Source: Larkinella soli
GTDB lineage: Bacteria > Bacteroidota > Bacteroidia > Cytophagales > Spirosomataceae
Direction: 5' to 3'
DNA: 64,000 nt
Assembly (NCBI RefSeq): GCF_003703975.1
Contig: NZ_QTJY01000002.1
Span: 124,001 to 188,000 of the forward strand
Shown in pieces: positions 38,250-42,247 of the stretch (its first letter is position 1; each line of letters opens with the position of its first letter). Position numbers and translations under genes: made by a program. The notes below the pieces were generated by a model. That model searched no databases and was not told where the DNA came from. It saw only the letters and a program-made list of their open reading frames with translations.

Positions 38250-38345
38250 ATTGCCGGCGGACGTCCCTCCGCTTGGCCCGACAACTAGTGAAATCAGGCC
38301 GTCCGGCGGAAAGCGGTCGTCCTCTTCCGGGCTTTAACAACAAGA

Positions 38346-38371
38346 TAGCCGGCCCAAGGCTGGACCGGCTA
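38346..38371 (-). terminator. Probable weak terminator of the 64-codon gene
   Basis: TAGCCGG pairs with CCGGCTA, and CCA with TGG, with one mismatch and loop AGGC. On the minus strand it is 33 bp after the stop at 38405 and is followed by TCTTGTTGTT. The plus-strand side has no T run, so it fits the minus-strand gene better. Confidence 0.45.
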
Positions 38372-38404
38372 CTCCATTCTGCCTAAAACGCTAAGAAAAC
38401 ACTC

Positions 38405-38599
38405 CTATTCAGCCAAATTTACGATTCTGCCGGCCCCGGAAATTCGAGTCCGGGCCATGCGATGTCGACACCAGCGGAGCAGTTGTATGCGTTCTACCGG
38501 AGAAAGCCATCGAAGCAGTTTGCGCAGTTCCTTTCGAAACAGCCCCCGGTCGAACTCAACCTTGTCTAAAACACTTTGACTGTATTCTAACCAGGACAT
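38405..38599 (-). CDS. Small conserved basic protein
   Basis: 64 residues, beginning MSWLEYSQSVLDKVEFDRGLF and continuing with ELRKLLRWLSPVERIQLLRWC. It is predicted helical and basic, with no signal or membrane segment. I recall similar short proteins (W-L-E-Y, F-D-R-x-L-F, E-L-R-K) in other Cytophagales, so it is probably real; no function is known to me. Strong support comes from its promoter region: a four-copy 11-bp-phased TTAGAA array (38642-38680) and a CATCTTTA box (38623-38630) laid out as in front of nhaD. It probably belongs to the same regulon. Confidence 0.72.
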   Translation of the reverse strand: MSWLEYSQSVLDKVEFDRGLFRKELRKLLRWLSPVERIQLLRWCRHRMARTRISGAGRIVNLAE

Positions 38600-38622
38600 A
38601 TGCTTTAAAGAGGTTTACAGTG

Positions 38623-38680
38623 TAAAGATGGGACCGCCCCCTTAAAGACTCCTTAGAACCCGATTAGAAAAAAATTAGAA
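38623..38680 (-). promoter_or_regulatory. Phased TTAGAA array and -7 box upstream of the 64-codon gene
   Basis: On the plus strand TTAAAG, TTAGAA, TTAGAA and TTAGAA start at 38642, 38653, 38664 and 38675, exactly 11 bp apart. Reading towards the gene, the array is followed by 11 bp and then CATCTTTA (38630-38623), 24 bp before the ATG. The same layout occurs at 40126-40183. Direct repeats with 11-bp period are typical of OmpR/PhoB-type response regulator sites. Confidence 0.7.
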
Positions 38681-38700
38681 TTCGGTCAAACCGGGCCGGT

Positions 38701-39972
38701 TCAGGAAACGATCCAGAACAGCACCAGCGCCCCGGCCGCGTAACCGGCCAGCGCCAGCGGACCGATCTGCTTCAGATAACCGGTAAACGTCAGCCGCTCG
38801 ATGCCCATCACCGCCACCCCGGCCGCCGATCCGATCAGCAGCAGGCTGCCCCCGGTGCCGGCACAATAGGCCAGCAGATGCCAGAATCGGTGGTCCTGCG
38901 GGAAAGTCTTCAGACTATACATGCTCATGGAAGCCGCCACCAGCGGCACGTTGTCGACCACCGCCGAGGCCAGGCCGATCACCAGCGTCGTCAGTTCTAC
39001 GGAAGCCACGTTCCGGTCGAGCCAGTGCGCCACCTGCTCCAGGATGCCGGCGGCTTCCAGCGCCCCGATCGCCAGCAGAATTCCCACGAAAAACAGGATG
39101 CTGCCCGTGTCGATTTTGCTCAGGGCATAGGCGGCCGACAGCGGCCGGCGGTCTTCCTCGTCCTTCCGGTGATGCAGCGCTTCCGACATCACCCAAACTG
39201 TTCCCAGCCCCAGCAGCATACCGAGGTAGGGAGGCAGCCCGGTCAGCACCTTGAACACCGGCACCATCACCAGCATACCGACCCCGGTCAGAAACATAGT
39301 GTTCCGTTCGCGGGCCGTCACCGATGCCTCCGACTCCGGCCTGAAAGCCTCGACCGGTTCGACCGGCCCGGAAAAGCGGAAGTGCAGGATCAGCAGGGGA
39401 ACGATCAGGGCGACGAGACTCGGAAGAATCAGGGTCAGAACGACCGCCGAGGTCGAAATCTGTCCGCCGATCCAGAGCATGGTCGTGGTGACGTCGCCCA
39501 GCGGTGACCAGGCCCCTCCGGCATTGGCCGACAGAATGATGATTCCGGCAAACAGCTGGCGAAGCTTCTGAAAGGGAATCAGCTTGGGCAGCAGGGACGC
39601 CATGACGATGGCCGTCGTCAGGTTGTCGAGCAGGGCCGACAGGACGAACGTAATGCCTCCGATGACCCAGAACAGCGTTCGGATGCGCCGGGTGCGGATG
39701 CGGTCAGTAATGATCTGGAAGCCGTTGTGGGCGTCGATCAGCTCCACGATGGTCATGGCGCCGAGCAGGAAAAAGGCAATCTCGGCGATCTGCGCAAGGT
39801 GGTGCGTCAGTTCCTCCACCACGGGTTCGTGGGCAGGTGAATACAGCCGGTATACGGTCCAGGCCAGAACGCCGGTCAGCAGGGCAGTGGCCGCCTTGTT
39901 CAGCCGGATGGTATGCTCCAGCGTAATCAGCAGGTAGCCCAGGAAGAAGAGAATTATCAGCAGTATAATCAT
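38701..39972 (-). CDS. nhaD: NhaD-type sodium/proton antiporter
   Basis: 423 residues with about eleven to twelve membrane segments. Conserved family stretches are LAQIAEIAFFLLGAMTIVELIDAHNGF, LSALLDNLTTAIVM, ANAGGAWSPLGDVTTTMLW near residue 150, and in the second half ASAVVDNVPLVAASM and AYCAGTGGSLLLIGSAAGV. These belong to the NhaD/arsenite-permease-like IT superfamily. It exchanges sodium or lithium for protons in the inner membrane. Upstream, between it and the histidine kinase gene, lie a phased TTAGAA array, a -7 box and, right before the ATG, a terminator hairpin. Regulation by the adjacent two-component system and by attenuation is inferred. Confidence 0.93.
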   Translation of the reverse strand: MIILLIILFFLGYLLITLEHTIRLNKAATALLTGVLAWTVYRLYSPAHEPVVEELTHHLAQIAEIAFFLLGAMTIVELIDAHNGFQIITDRIRTRRIRTLFWVIGGITFVLSALLDNLTTAIVMASLLPKLIPFQKLRQLFAGIIILSANAGGAWSPLGDVTTTMLWIGGQISTSAVVLTLILPSLVALIVPLLILHFRFSGPVEPVEAFRPESEASVTARERNTMFLTGVGMLVMVPVFKVLTGLPPYLGMLLGLGTVWVMSEALHHRKDEEDRRPLSAAYALSKIDTGSILFFVGILLAIGALEAAGILEQVAHWLDRNVASVELTTLVIGLASAVVDNVPLVAASMSMYSLKTFPQDHRFWHLLAYCAGTGGSLLLIGSAAGVAVMGIERLTFTGYLKQIGPLALAGYAAGALVLFWIVS

Positions 39973-39985
39973 TGTCGAAGGAATT

Positions 39986-40019
39986 AAAAAAATAACCGGT
40001 CACCTGGTAACCGGTTATT
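39986..40019 (-). terminator. Terminator hairpin 13 bp before the nhaD start, candidate attenuator
   Basis: AATAACCGGT (39991-40000) pairs with ACCGGTTATT (40010-40019) around a 9-nt loop; on the minus strand a run of seven T, two of them in the stem, follows to 39986. The nhaD ATG is at 39972, so no promoter fits between hairpin and gene. Transcription of nhaD must pass through it, either from the 40126-40133 box or from the kinase operon. It may instead simply end the kinase operon. Confidence 0.75.
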
Positions 40020-40125
40020 AGGAACACCTGAATTAGCAATTTTTGCCAAAAATCTTCTATTAGTTTCCGCACAAAAGAGAGACCGGCGCAGGCTGGACTG
40101 TGTCCGGTGAAACGCCTTTCCATGA

Positions 40126-40183
40126 CAAAGATGCGGCTGCGGTATTAGAAAACACTTAGAAGGACGTTAGAAAAAAGTTAAAA
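40126..40183 (-). promoter_or_regulatory. Phased TTAGAA array and -7 box upstream of nhaD
   Basis: On the plus strand TTAGAA, TTAGAA, TTAGAA and TTAAAA start at 40145, 40156, 40167 and 40178, an exact 11-bp period. The array begins 6 bp after the histidine kinase stop. Reading towards nhaD it is followed by 11 bp and CATCTTTG (40133-40126), one mismatch from TAnnTTTG. Transcription would start near 40120, giving a leader of about 150 nt that contains the terminator at 39986-40019. Confidence 0.72.
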
Positions 40184-40188
40184 ACCGG

Positions 40189-41556
40189 CTAAAGATGAGC
40201 CAGCCAGACCGTAAACCGGCTTCCTTCGTGCAGCCTGCTTTCGACGGTGATCCGCCCCTGGTGCAGCTCGACGATCCGCTGGCAGATCGGCAGCCCGATG
40301 CCGAACCCTTCAAACCCGACGGCTTTCGGCGAGCGGTAAAACGGCTCAAAAGCCCGCTCCATTTCCTCCGGAGCCATGCCGATGCCCCGGTCTTCGATGC
40401 TGACCCGGCAGAACTTCCGGTCCGTCCCGATCCGGATCCGGGCCGTTCGGTCGGTGGAGTACTTACAGGCATTGTCCAGAAGGTTCTGCAACACCCGCTT
40501 CAGCAGTTCCTCATTTCCCGAAACCATCGTTTCGTTTTCGGAATCGGGCAGGTTCTCATAATCGAACTCGATGCGGTATTCCGGCTTGGCGCTGATCAGT
40601 TCGTCCTTTGCCATCAGCACGACCTCCTCCATCCGGACCGGTACGAGGGGCATCTGGGTGAGGTTCTCCAGCGTCCGGGCCAGAAACAGCAGGCTGTTGG
40701 TCAGGTTGATGAGCCGGTCGGTATCGGATAGCAGGTTGTTCAGGATTTCCTGGTATTCTTCCGGGCTGAACCGGCGGAGCAGGCCCAGCTGAATTTCCGA
40801 TTTCAGGGCGGCCAGCGGGGTGCGGAGTTCGTGGGAGGCATGGGAGACGAAACTGCGCTGCTGTTCGAAAGCCTGTTCGAGCCGCCCCAGCACGACGTTG
40901 AAGTTGACGGCCAACTGATCGATTTCGTCTTTCCGGTCGCCTTCGTCGAGCCGCTGCTGGAGGTTGCGGGCGGTGATGGTCGAGATCTGCCGGTTGATCT
41001 GGTCGATGGGCTGGAGCGACTGTCCGGCGAAGAAGATACCAAGACCGACGGTGATCCCGATCCCGAAGATCAGCCCCCAGACCAGGGTGATCCCGAGGTT
41101 GAGCTGTTTGTTGCGGCCGAAGAGGTCATAGGCCGAGGCCAGCACCACCAGTTTCCGGCCGCTCTCCTCGAACAGGATGCCGACGAGTTGATTCTGGTCG
41201 CTCCAGGTTTCCACGTCCTTCTGCTGCCGGACCTCGTCGAGGAGTTGTTTCTGGTAATGAATCACCTGATCGTCGACGCTCGCATAGATCAGCCGGTTCT
41301 TTTCGTCGAAGACCAGCACCTTTTCGTCATAAAGCGCAGTCAGCGTGTTCCGGTCGATGATTTTCAGGAGTTTCTGGTCCACCTCACTGACCATGACCAG
41401 AAACCGGGCGGTGGTGCGGGCCTTGCTTTTCAGGCGGTCGTAGAAGTCCTCCCGGGCGTAGGCCGCCGAGGTCAGGTAGATGATGAACGAGAAAACCAGC
41501 AGGATCGACGCAACGATCAGCGAGAACTGAAGGGCAATCCGGTTTCTGATCTTCAT
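40189..41556 (-). CDS. Sensor histidine kinase with HAMP domain
   Basis: 455 residues. Membrane segments at about 9-29 and 165-187 enclose a periplasmic sensor domain of about 135 residues with no recognisable ligand fold. HAMP follows (about 190-240), then the HisKA dimerisation domain with the phospho-acceptor in SHASHELRTPLAAL (about 245), and the ATPase domain with N box LLDNACKYS, G1 DRGIGMAPEEM, F box FEPFYR and G2 GFGIGLPICQ. It phosphorylates the response regulator encoded 4 bp upstream. The domain plan is that of CusS/EnvZ-like metal or envelope-stress kinases. What it senses is not evident; the neighbouring nhaD hints at ions or pH. Confidence 0.94.
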   Translation of the reverse strand: MKIRNRIALQFSLIVASILLVFSFIIYLTSAAYAREDFYDRLKSKARTTARFLVMVSEVDQKLLKIIDRNTLTALYDEKVLVFDEKNRLIYASVDDQVIHYQKQLLDEVRQQKDVETWSDQNQLVGILFEESGRKLVVLASAYDLFGRNKQLNLGITLVWGLIFGIGITVGLGIFFAGQSLQPIDQINRQISTITARNLQQRLDEGDRKDEIDQLAVNFNVVLGRLEQAFEQQRSFVSHASHELRTPLAALKSEIQLGLLRRFSPEEYQEILNNLLSDTDRLINLTNSLLFLARTLENLTQMPLVPVRMEEVVLMAKDELISAKPEYRIEFDYENLPDSENETMVSGNEELLKRVLQNLLDNACKYSTDRTARIRIGTDRKFCRVSIEDRGIGMAPEEMERAFEPFYRSPKAVGFEGFGIGLPICQRIVELHQGRITVESRLHEGSRFTVWLAHL

Positions 41557-41560
41557 GGAG

Positions 41561-42247
41561 CTACTCTACTTTTAGAACATACCCCATGCCGGCGCGGGTG
41601 TGAATGAGCCGGGGTTCGAAGCCACGGTCGATTTTCTTCCGTAAATAGTTGATATATACCTCCACTACATTGGTACCCGGATCGAAATTCAGGCTCCAGA
41701 CCTTCTCGGCCAGGTCTATTTTGGAAACCACCCTTCCCCGGTTCCGCAGCAGGTATTCGAGCAGGGCGAACTCCCGGGCGGTCAGGTCGATGGTGGTGCT
41801 GCCCCGTTTCACCTGTTTGGTCGTCACGTTCACCTCCAGGTCGGCGATGTGCAGCACCTCGTCGGCGGCATCCCGCTGGAGCACTTCGGCCCGGCGCAGA
41901 CAGGTGGCAATGCGGGCGTTCAGCTCCCGGAAATCGAACGGTTTGACGATGTAGTCATCGGCACCCCGTTCCAGCCCCTCTACCTTATCCTCGATCTCCC
42001 CCAGGGCCGTCAGCATGATGATGGGCAGCTGGGGTTTTTCGGCCCGGATATTCCGGCAGATTTCGTAGCCGTTCAGGCCCGGCAGGTTAATGTCAAGCAG
42101 GATCAGATCGAACGATTGCCGGAGGGCCAGGTCCCGTCCGTTGTAGCCTTCGTAGGCAATCTCGGTTTCGTAGCCCTCCTCCGCCAGCCCCCGGCCGATG
42201 TTCTGCGCAATCCGGCGGTCGTCCTCGATGATCAGGATCCGCTTCAT
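41561..42247 (-). CDS. OmpR/PhoB-family response regulator
   Basis: 228 residues from the ATG at 42247, one base after the map stop; an earlier in-frame ATG at 42295 would lie inside map and is rejected. Receiver domain 1-120: acidic pair IIEDDRRIA, phospho-acceptor Asp in LILLDINLPGLNG (about 51), Thr in IMLTAL, Lys in DYIVKPFDFREL. Winged-helix DNA-binding domain from about 130: LTAREFALLEYLLRN and the recognition helix NVVEVYINYLRKKID. Proteins of this family bind direct repeats with an 11-bp period as dimers, matching the arrays at 40145-40183 and 38642-38680. Confidence 0.95.
   Translation of the reverse strand: MKRILIIEDDRRIAQNIGRGLAEEGYETEIAYEGYNGRDLALRQSFDLILLDINLPGLNGYEICRNIRAEKPQLPIIMLTALGEIEDKVEGLERGADDYIVKPFDFRELNARIATCLRRAEVLQRDAADEVLHIADLEVNVTTKQVKRGSTTIDLTAREFALLEYLLRNRGRVVSKIDLAEKVWSLNFDPGTNVVEVYINYLRKKIDRGFEPRLIHTRAGMGYVLKVE

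Follow-up and report, generated by a model that had tools for sequence, protein, structure and literature searches.

The PmrA box reads HTTAAD-N5-HTTAAD. In enteric bacteria OmrA, OmrB and other small RNAs are controlled by an OmpR-family regulator, are short and end in an intrinsic terminator. PmrA and PhoB bind head-to-tail on two direct half-sites, the upstream half-site covering the -35 element (PMC4660055), and direct repeats of such form are bound by PmrA, PhoB, KdpE and M. tuberculosis PhoP. AgrR of Cupriavidus, instead, is reported to bind an imperfect inverted repeat, ATTACA-N4 (PMC7380067). For Bacteroidetes promoters a -7 consensus TAnnTTTG and a -33 TTTG are given (PMC7366714).

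The locus described here lies in a 64,000-nt window (the whole stretch of DNA that was analysed) of Larkinella soli, assembly GCF_003703975.1, contig NZ_QTJY01000002.1, 124,001–188,000 of the forward strand. The features recognised or predicted in it, listed in the order in which they follow on the minus strand, are:

41561–42247, minus strand: OmpR/PhoB-family response regulator, 228 aa, heavy-metal CusR/CzcR-like (PF00072 and PF00486)
40189–41556, minus strand: sensor histidine kinase, 455 aa, heavy-metal CusS/CzcS-like (HAMP, HisKA, HATPase_c)
40145–40183, minus strand: array 1, predicted regulator operator; TTTTAA at 40178–40183 and TTCTAA at 40167–40172, 40156–40161 and 40145–40150, with an 11-bp period
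40126–40133, minus strand: CATCTTTG, -7-like element, exactly 11 bp (40134–40144) past the last unit of array 1
39986–40121, minus strand: predicted small non-coding RNA of about 136 nt, supported by alignment with genus-mates; its 5' end was placed according to the -7 element
39986–40070, minus strand: conserved 3' domain of the predicted RNA (AATAGAAGATTTTTGGC...ATTGCTAATTCAGGTG...terminator), from covariance model R3
39991–40019, minus strand: intrinsic terminator hairpin with a 13-bp stem; T-run at 39986–39992
38701–39972, minus strand: nhaD-type Na+/H+ antiporter, 423 aa (NF038006), putatively acquired later at a site flanked by the RNA terminator and array 2
38642–38680, minus strand: array 2, three TTCTAA units plus CTTTAA, 11-bp period, 20 bp 3' of nhaD
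38623–38630, minus strand: CATCTTTA, -7-like element, 11 bp past array 2
38405–38599, minus strand: gene12, conserved small ORF, 64 aa (MSWLEYSQSVLDKVEFDRGLFRKELRK...), without Pfam or NCBIfam match
38339–38417, minus strand: conserved 3' element with terminator after gene12 (TGTTTTCTTAGCGTTTTAGG...GTAGCCGG...CCGGCTATCTTGTT); weak R3 match, 14.8 bits

On the minus strand, which is that of both the kinase and nhaD, array 1 reads TTTTAA-N5-TTCTAA-N5-TTCTAA-N5-TTCTAA, followed by 11 bp and CATCTTTG. An earlier note on this DNA had reported TTAGAA at 40145, 40156 and 40167 and TTAAAA at 40178 (plus strand) with an exact 11-bp period, then 11 bp towards nhaD and a -7-like sequence, here located at 40126–40133, as well as an OmpR/PhoB-family regulator at 41561–42247 with its kinase; all of these were found as reported, the regulator having the receiver and winged-helix domains of its family (PF00072, PF00486). 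The gap between the kinase stop codon (40189–40191) and array 1, given there as 6 bp, is actually 5 bp. Absent from that note were the second array of the same geometry 3' of nhaD (38642–38680) and the 13-bp intrinsic-terminator hairpin (39991–40019) between array 1 and nhaD.

The locus resembles those of PmrA/BasR, PhoB and KdpE of Proteobacteria in combining an OmpR/PhoB-family regulator with direct half-sites about one helical turn apart, and sequence comparison places chains of BasR/PmrA, KdpE and M. tuberculosis PhoP close to the regulator in structure. The earlier statement that no site of this form was described was too strong, given the direct repeats bound by PmrA, PhoB, KdpE and M. 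tuberculosis PhoP. However, the half-site is here TTCTAA instead of HTTAAD, which only some units (e.g., CTTTAAG) fit, the array as such not matching the PmrA box; moreover, against the two units of PmrA, PhoB and KdpE, three to six are found, 11 bp from a Bacteroidota -7 element, with binding predicted. The long direct array also differs from the imperfect inverted repeat of AgrR. With CusRS/CzcRS and CusCBA/CzcCBA the locus shares the best NCBIfam models of regulator and kinase (TIGR01387 and TIGR01386) and, in the genus-mates, a TolC-HlyD-RND operon of CusA/CzcA type, but both proteins remain below the curated cut-offs (regulator 248.5 bits against 279.2 for the heavy metal response regulator model; kinase 223 bits against 292.55 for the heavy metal sensor kinase model) and the efflux operon is missing. 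The likeness to OmrA/OmrB is that of an OmpR-family regulator driving a short terminated RNA, whereas the RNA of the window was found in one genus only and inside the regulator's own efflux locus. In a limited search of the open-access literature, in which the motif itself was little queried, no description of the TTCTAA operator, its Bacteroidota geometry, the short RNA or the cargo exchange was found. The operator form, and OmpR-controlled short RNAs in enterics, are known; what looks new is the sequence, the Bacteroidota setting, the short RNA and the exchange of cargo.

Allowing at most two mismatches, the two-unit pattern occurs six times in the window, always in one of the two arrays, whereas 100 shuffles gave 1.52 on average and 5 at most. 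In the own genome (6.92 Mb) its exact form has eight occurrences, corresponding to five arrays, two of them in the window. The exact three-unit motif gave five matches in the own genome against none for the reversed control, and 80 matches in 56 of 150 family genomes against one, some of the 80 overlapping inside one array and many coming from related species. A draw across the phylum yielded a three-unit match in 11/296 genomes, own genome included, with one reversed-control match, thus indicating that the exact form of the motif is mainly confined to its own family. At 21 of 29 exact-pattern loci in other genomes (29 out of the 75 pattern matches outside the own genome) a kinase/regulator of the window's class was encoded within 1.5 kb.

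A census was then taken of 94 regions 3' of window-related kinases, drawn from the kinase matches listed, nearly all by kinase score: the 30 best matches (window included), 60 further ones with some skipped, and L171, L172, L173 and L175; lower-ranked matches, the L174 kinase and the second one of L175 were left out. Three units with at least 16/18 matching positions were present within 320 bp of the stop in 41/94 regions, compared with 0.1% of the trials for dinucleotide-resampled sequences, 1/94 for reversed segments and 0/94 in the opposite orientation. When the TAnnTTTG score was determined at distances 0–44 past the last unit of these 41 arrays, a dominant peak appeared at 11 bp (mean 3.68 out of 5), the means at the other 44 distances ranging from 0.59 to 2.2, with 1.93 and 2.2 at distances 10 and 12 and no array scoring at least 4 at either. 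At 11 bp a score of at least 4/5 is reached by 24/41 arrays, at the next best distance (35) by 6/41. Many of the 41 arrays come from close relatives, the 35 training promoters being reduced to 20 by an 85% identity filter, and 17 of these 20 score at least 4/5 for the -7 element at 11 bp. The consensus over 13 promoters (the C19 row and one further row left out) has TTCTAA in the first three units and TnTAA in the fourth. Array presence varies with the first gene behind the kinase: 35/40 regions with a TolC-type gene, 2/2 with gene12 (one genus) and 2/50 with other genes. The corresponding 2/2 for nhaD (window and G036) is not independent, since both arrays were known beforehand, the window being the discovery site and L171 (G036) having joined the census after its array and nhaD had been seen. 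Direct half-sites with an 11-bp period, a fixed position relative to the core promoter and a family regulator encoded nearby, the marks of a tandem direct-repeat operator, are therefore all found here, and the assignment of the array as a tandem-repeat response-regulator operator is well supported by sequence comparison, binding of the regulator being predicted.

Kinase orthologues, 78–79% identical, are present in 8/8 genus-mates, in each of which the kinase has an array of its own and a TolC...RND operon behind it. The RND protein of one of them (L162) reaches 950.7 bits with TIGR00914 (CusA/CzcA), above the cut-off of 701.45, those of the remaining mates being assigned by homology clustering only; HlyD and the regulator were called in 7/8, antisense frames having been picked in place of HlyD (L158) and of the regulator (L160). 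Directly past the RND stop, 7/8 mates have an array, then non-coding DNA whose tail is conserved (...ATTGCTAATTTCAGGTGATTYCGATAGCCGGT...terminator), a further array and gene12; the eighth (G071) carries array, RNA, terminator, array and gene12 as one block at another site, separated from the kinase by about 24 kb. The window shows the order HK-[array 1]-RNA-terminator-nhaD-[array 2]-gene12, and the genes beyond gene12 (clusters 6 and 7) are common to the window and 6/8 mates. The TolC-RND efflux operon is missing at the window locus, and the best match of the own genome to a mate's TolC, the only component sought, is 40% identical, against 84–94% among the mates themselves. From the T-run of the RNA to the next array there are roughly ten bases in the mates, a gap that in the window is filled by nhaD. 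Conservation of the repeats upstream of nhaD in relatives keeping the kinase had been proposed in the earlier note as the test of its reading; the outcome went against nhaD, as 8/8 mates keep kinase and array, with TolC-RND instead.

Array 1 is identical at 37–45/66 positions to the best-matching stretch behind the RND genes of the mates (in G058 this stretch is the gene12 array) and at 35–39/66 to their TolC arrays, the TolC array being the closer one in G043. By themselves these identities do not tell the two candidate ancestors apart, and array 1 was assigned to the short-RNA unit because of the shared RNA tail; its origin as the old TolC promoter was set aside, given that the tail matches the unit 3' of the RND gene. 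Since the efflux operon follows the kinase in 8/8 mates and in many other genera, loss in the window lineage is the simpler direction, and we infer from gene order that the efflux operon was lost and nhaD gained. The antiporter gene, thus, seems to have replaced a metal-efflux operon at this locus.

Between the kinase stop and nhaD the window can be aligned with the short-RNA unit of the mates (array, CATCTTTG, AATAGAAGATTTTTGGC...ATTGCTAATTCAGGTG, hairpin). The covariance model R3, built from seven mates without the window, matches window positions 39986–40070 with 54 bits (E 2e-9) and the held-out G071 with 112 bits, while R2, a model with the window included, finds the unit in 9/9 genus genomes. 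Weak matches were obtained in eight genomes outside the genus (E 1.5e-4 to 8e-3, at most 38 bits) and, in second place, also in three genus-mates; occurrence of the RNA outside the genus was not retained, the ten weak matches aligned (L294 and L297 not among them) agreeing mainly in hairpin and T-run. The predicted RNA has a fold z of -2.68, with 2/200 shuffles at least as stable. Ten stem pairs are kept in 80/80 cells, the one double change, G-C to A-U, being that of the window; covariation of the terminator is thin, the shuffle control reaching the observed values in 43 to 302 of 500. Predicted length is about 136 nt in the window and 168–233 nt in seven mates, and conservation is confined to the 3' domain of the body, the 5' half not being conserved. 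By eye, this 5' half appears to contain long REP-like palindromes (GGTGAGACAAGAG-type arms) in the mates L156, L157, L159, L161 and L162.

A search of 38400–40300 against Rfam returned nothing over the gathering score (best STnc240, 26 bits against 55, E 0.43), on which ground a known riboswitch or sRNA in this interval was rejected. A coding function was considered as well, an open frame (39704–40123) starting in the leader, but a 1-nt deletion and length changes that break the frame in the conserved tail speak against it. Own promoter, conserved non-coding body and intrinsic terminator, as looked for in a small-RNA gene, are all present, and we infer that the predicted short RNA is a real transcript. 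Among the starts of the genes of the locus, duplex energies indicated no consistent target for it.

In the genus-mates the array corresponding to array 2 likewise stands before gene12. The conserved 3' element after gene12 precedes a CheY-like gene in the mates; in the window the CheY-like gene is missing and the element kept.

The antiporter gene scores 159.3 bits with NF038006, passing the cut-off of 80, and 375 bits with TIGR00775, below the cut-off of 577.1, and at this locus it is absent in 8/8 genus-mates. The vertical nhaD copy of the genome is C18:33646, 71.9–73.5% identical to the nhaD of four genus-mates; the window copy is a different one. In the nhaD tree the latter forms a long branch that joins the G089 nhaD (93/90) or, without the G089 row, the g31 copies (98/95), a window plus g31 clade not being rejected with all rows included (p-AU 0.247); its affinity is unsure because of the long branch.

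The units of array 1 are short and AT-rich and its Tandem Repeats Finder score is low (38), as would suit an AT-rich repeat arisen by chance or a structural sequence without regulatory role. Such an origin, which we regard as hardly credible, is opposed by the fixed 11-bp distance and by the controls with reversed pattern, resampling and opposite orientation. A real operator might, on the other hand, be read by one or several paralogous regulators within a shared stress network, and not by the signal of the window kinase. Among the 11 Trans_reg_C matches of the own genome, four other regulators are 47.8–51.3% identical to that of the window and have nearly the same recognition helix, with small changes as in TNVVEVYINYLRKKID, so that another of the five might bind at array 1. 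All five gene pairs of this class have arrays nearby (that of the C19 regulator just outside the scanned locus and detected by the promoter model R1), whereas the other six matches showed no array inside about 1.5 kb, the operator code thus belonging to a small regulator family; sites of the same form also precede trehalose genes and transporters. In the nine genus genomes, however, 25/39 R1 matches fall at the orthologous locus and the best two of each of the 8/8 mates are there, as for a dedicated pair, four mates' arrays having been in the R1 training set; array 2, also a training member, is the best genome-wide match in the own genome. In addition, the sites of the paralogue C2:441 drift to NTTTAA, hinting at a separate half-site preference. 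Reading by a paralogue appears to us quite improbable, and the proposal that the array is an operator of the adjacent OmpR/PhoB-family regulator, as predicted, agrees with its conservation beside orthologous kinases, the fixed -7 distance and the position of the mates' best sites.

Array 1 could also be the promoter and operator of nhaD itself, the hairpin acting as an attenuator of the nhaD leader until induction relieves it, so that the regulator would control sodium/proton exchange. Indeed, the first gene met downstream in this orientation is nhaD, and the 13 nt from the T-run to its ATG leave no room for a promoter of its own, so that its transcription would require read-through or a promoter within the RNA gene. 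In G036, a different genus, the order is RR-HK-array-leader-hairpin-nhaD at nearly equal distances, a 12-bp terminator-like hairpin ending at 137 nt, against 135 nt in the window. A profile trained on promoters behind kinases with L126, L171, L229, L138, L140 and L142 excluded (window and G036 among them), gives scores of 53.1, 30.6 and 22.8 to the nhaD upstream regions of the window, G145 and G036, and the own nhaD genes of four genus-mates are preceded by two units with a negative profile score (resampling p 0.003–0.010). A TTCTAA-type array therefore precedes nhaD in two other genera (G036, G145) and weakly in the mates, and nhaD may be a natural client of the regulator family. Nevertheless, most of the examined nhaD genes have no array, 3/53 rows scoring above 20 (51 distinct rows, two genomes entering twice, chosen out of 105 genomes with a match); the array-RNA-terminator unit occurs in 8/8 mates without nhaD behind it and was thus not made for nhaD; and a strong terminator separates array 1 from the gene, which array 1 can drive only by read-through. 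A direct nhaD promoter as the sole function is weakened by the terminator and by the mates' unit without nhaD, and we consider this explanation unlikely. Of the earlier claim that the regulator controls sodium/proton exchange, direct control is not supported, in view of the terminator and of the short-RNA unit in 9/9 genomes, whereas control by read-through is possible.

The explanation we hold to be probable, from comparison of the sequences, is that array 1 is the regulator's operator for the short RNA and array 2 that for gene12, the efflux operon having been lost and nhaD inserted with read-through at best. The arrays, their geometry and conservation, the RNA unit throughout the genus and the differing gene content can be read from the compared genomes. 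The phosphorylated regulator (41561–42247) would bind array 1 as two head-to-tail dimers on four half-sites, the last of which precedes the -7 element by 11 bp, so that RNA polymerase would be recruited at this point; binding and activation would answer a signal such as metal or envelope stress. The direct product would be the short RNA of about 136 nt ending at the hairpin 39991–40019, and array 2 would drive gene12 likewise. In the ancestor the same system would also have driven the TolC-HlyD-CusA/CzcA metal-efflux operon; in the window lineage this operon would have been lost from the locus and an nhaD of a second lineage would have entered between the RNA terminator and array 2. Most transcripts from array 1 would then stop near 39986, and nhaD would be expressed through read-through or from a promoter inside the RNA gene. 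More tentatively, the locus may be a conserved regulatory shell with exchangeable cargo: three operators of like design would have served the efflux operon, the RNA and the gene of a tiny protein, and nhaD, placed behind the RNA, would have come to use it as a terminated leader, with five paralogous systems of the genome sharing one code and a family of regulator-controlled short RNAs existing in this group of Bacteroidota.

The locus offers a sequence-level operator code for a response-regulator family of Bacteroidota, where the -7 promoter was already known, by which regulons (efflux pumps, trehalose genes, small proteins) become predictable by pattern. It would also provide a short RNA built into the locus of a metal-type two-component system and a case of regulatory parts outliving the genes once controlled, and it warns that the next downstream gene is not necessarily the target when a terminator intervenes.

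Further arrays of the own genome have contexts of their own. Among its 15 best array sites (the best 15 of 21 R1 matches) four (window, C6:310, C2:441.03 and C1:70.2) have a hairpin of at least 11 bp with a T-run in the 230 nt behind the array. The same feature occurs in 103/3000 random 230-nt segments, a control that includes coding DNA and would be higher for intergenic DNA. At the three sites outside the window, L059 (C6:310882–310937), L267 (C2:441031) and L268 (C1:70180), a short leader lies behind the array, and then a strong terminator; L059 lies before a TreS-like gene, L267 before a paralogous regulator and L268 has no clear next gene. These are possible further regulator-controlled short RNAs. 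Arrays also stand before a trehalose-6-phosphate synthase/phosphatase fusion (L055, C3:435–440 kb) and the TreS-maltokinase-like gene of L059, suggesting that a paralogous system controls trehalose. L056 (C4:90390–90458) and L060 (C19:77725–77781) directly follow two other kinases and precede tiny ORFs of 101 and 95 aa without Pfam match, then a SulP-like transporter or an HlyD-RND pump. At L271 (C2:440539–440595), finally, four NTTTAA units are followed by 11 bp, a perfect TAATTTTG and a very short ORF some 700 bp upstream of a paralogous regulator.
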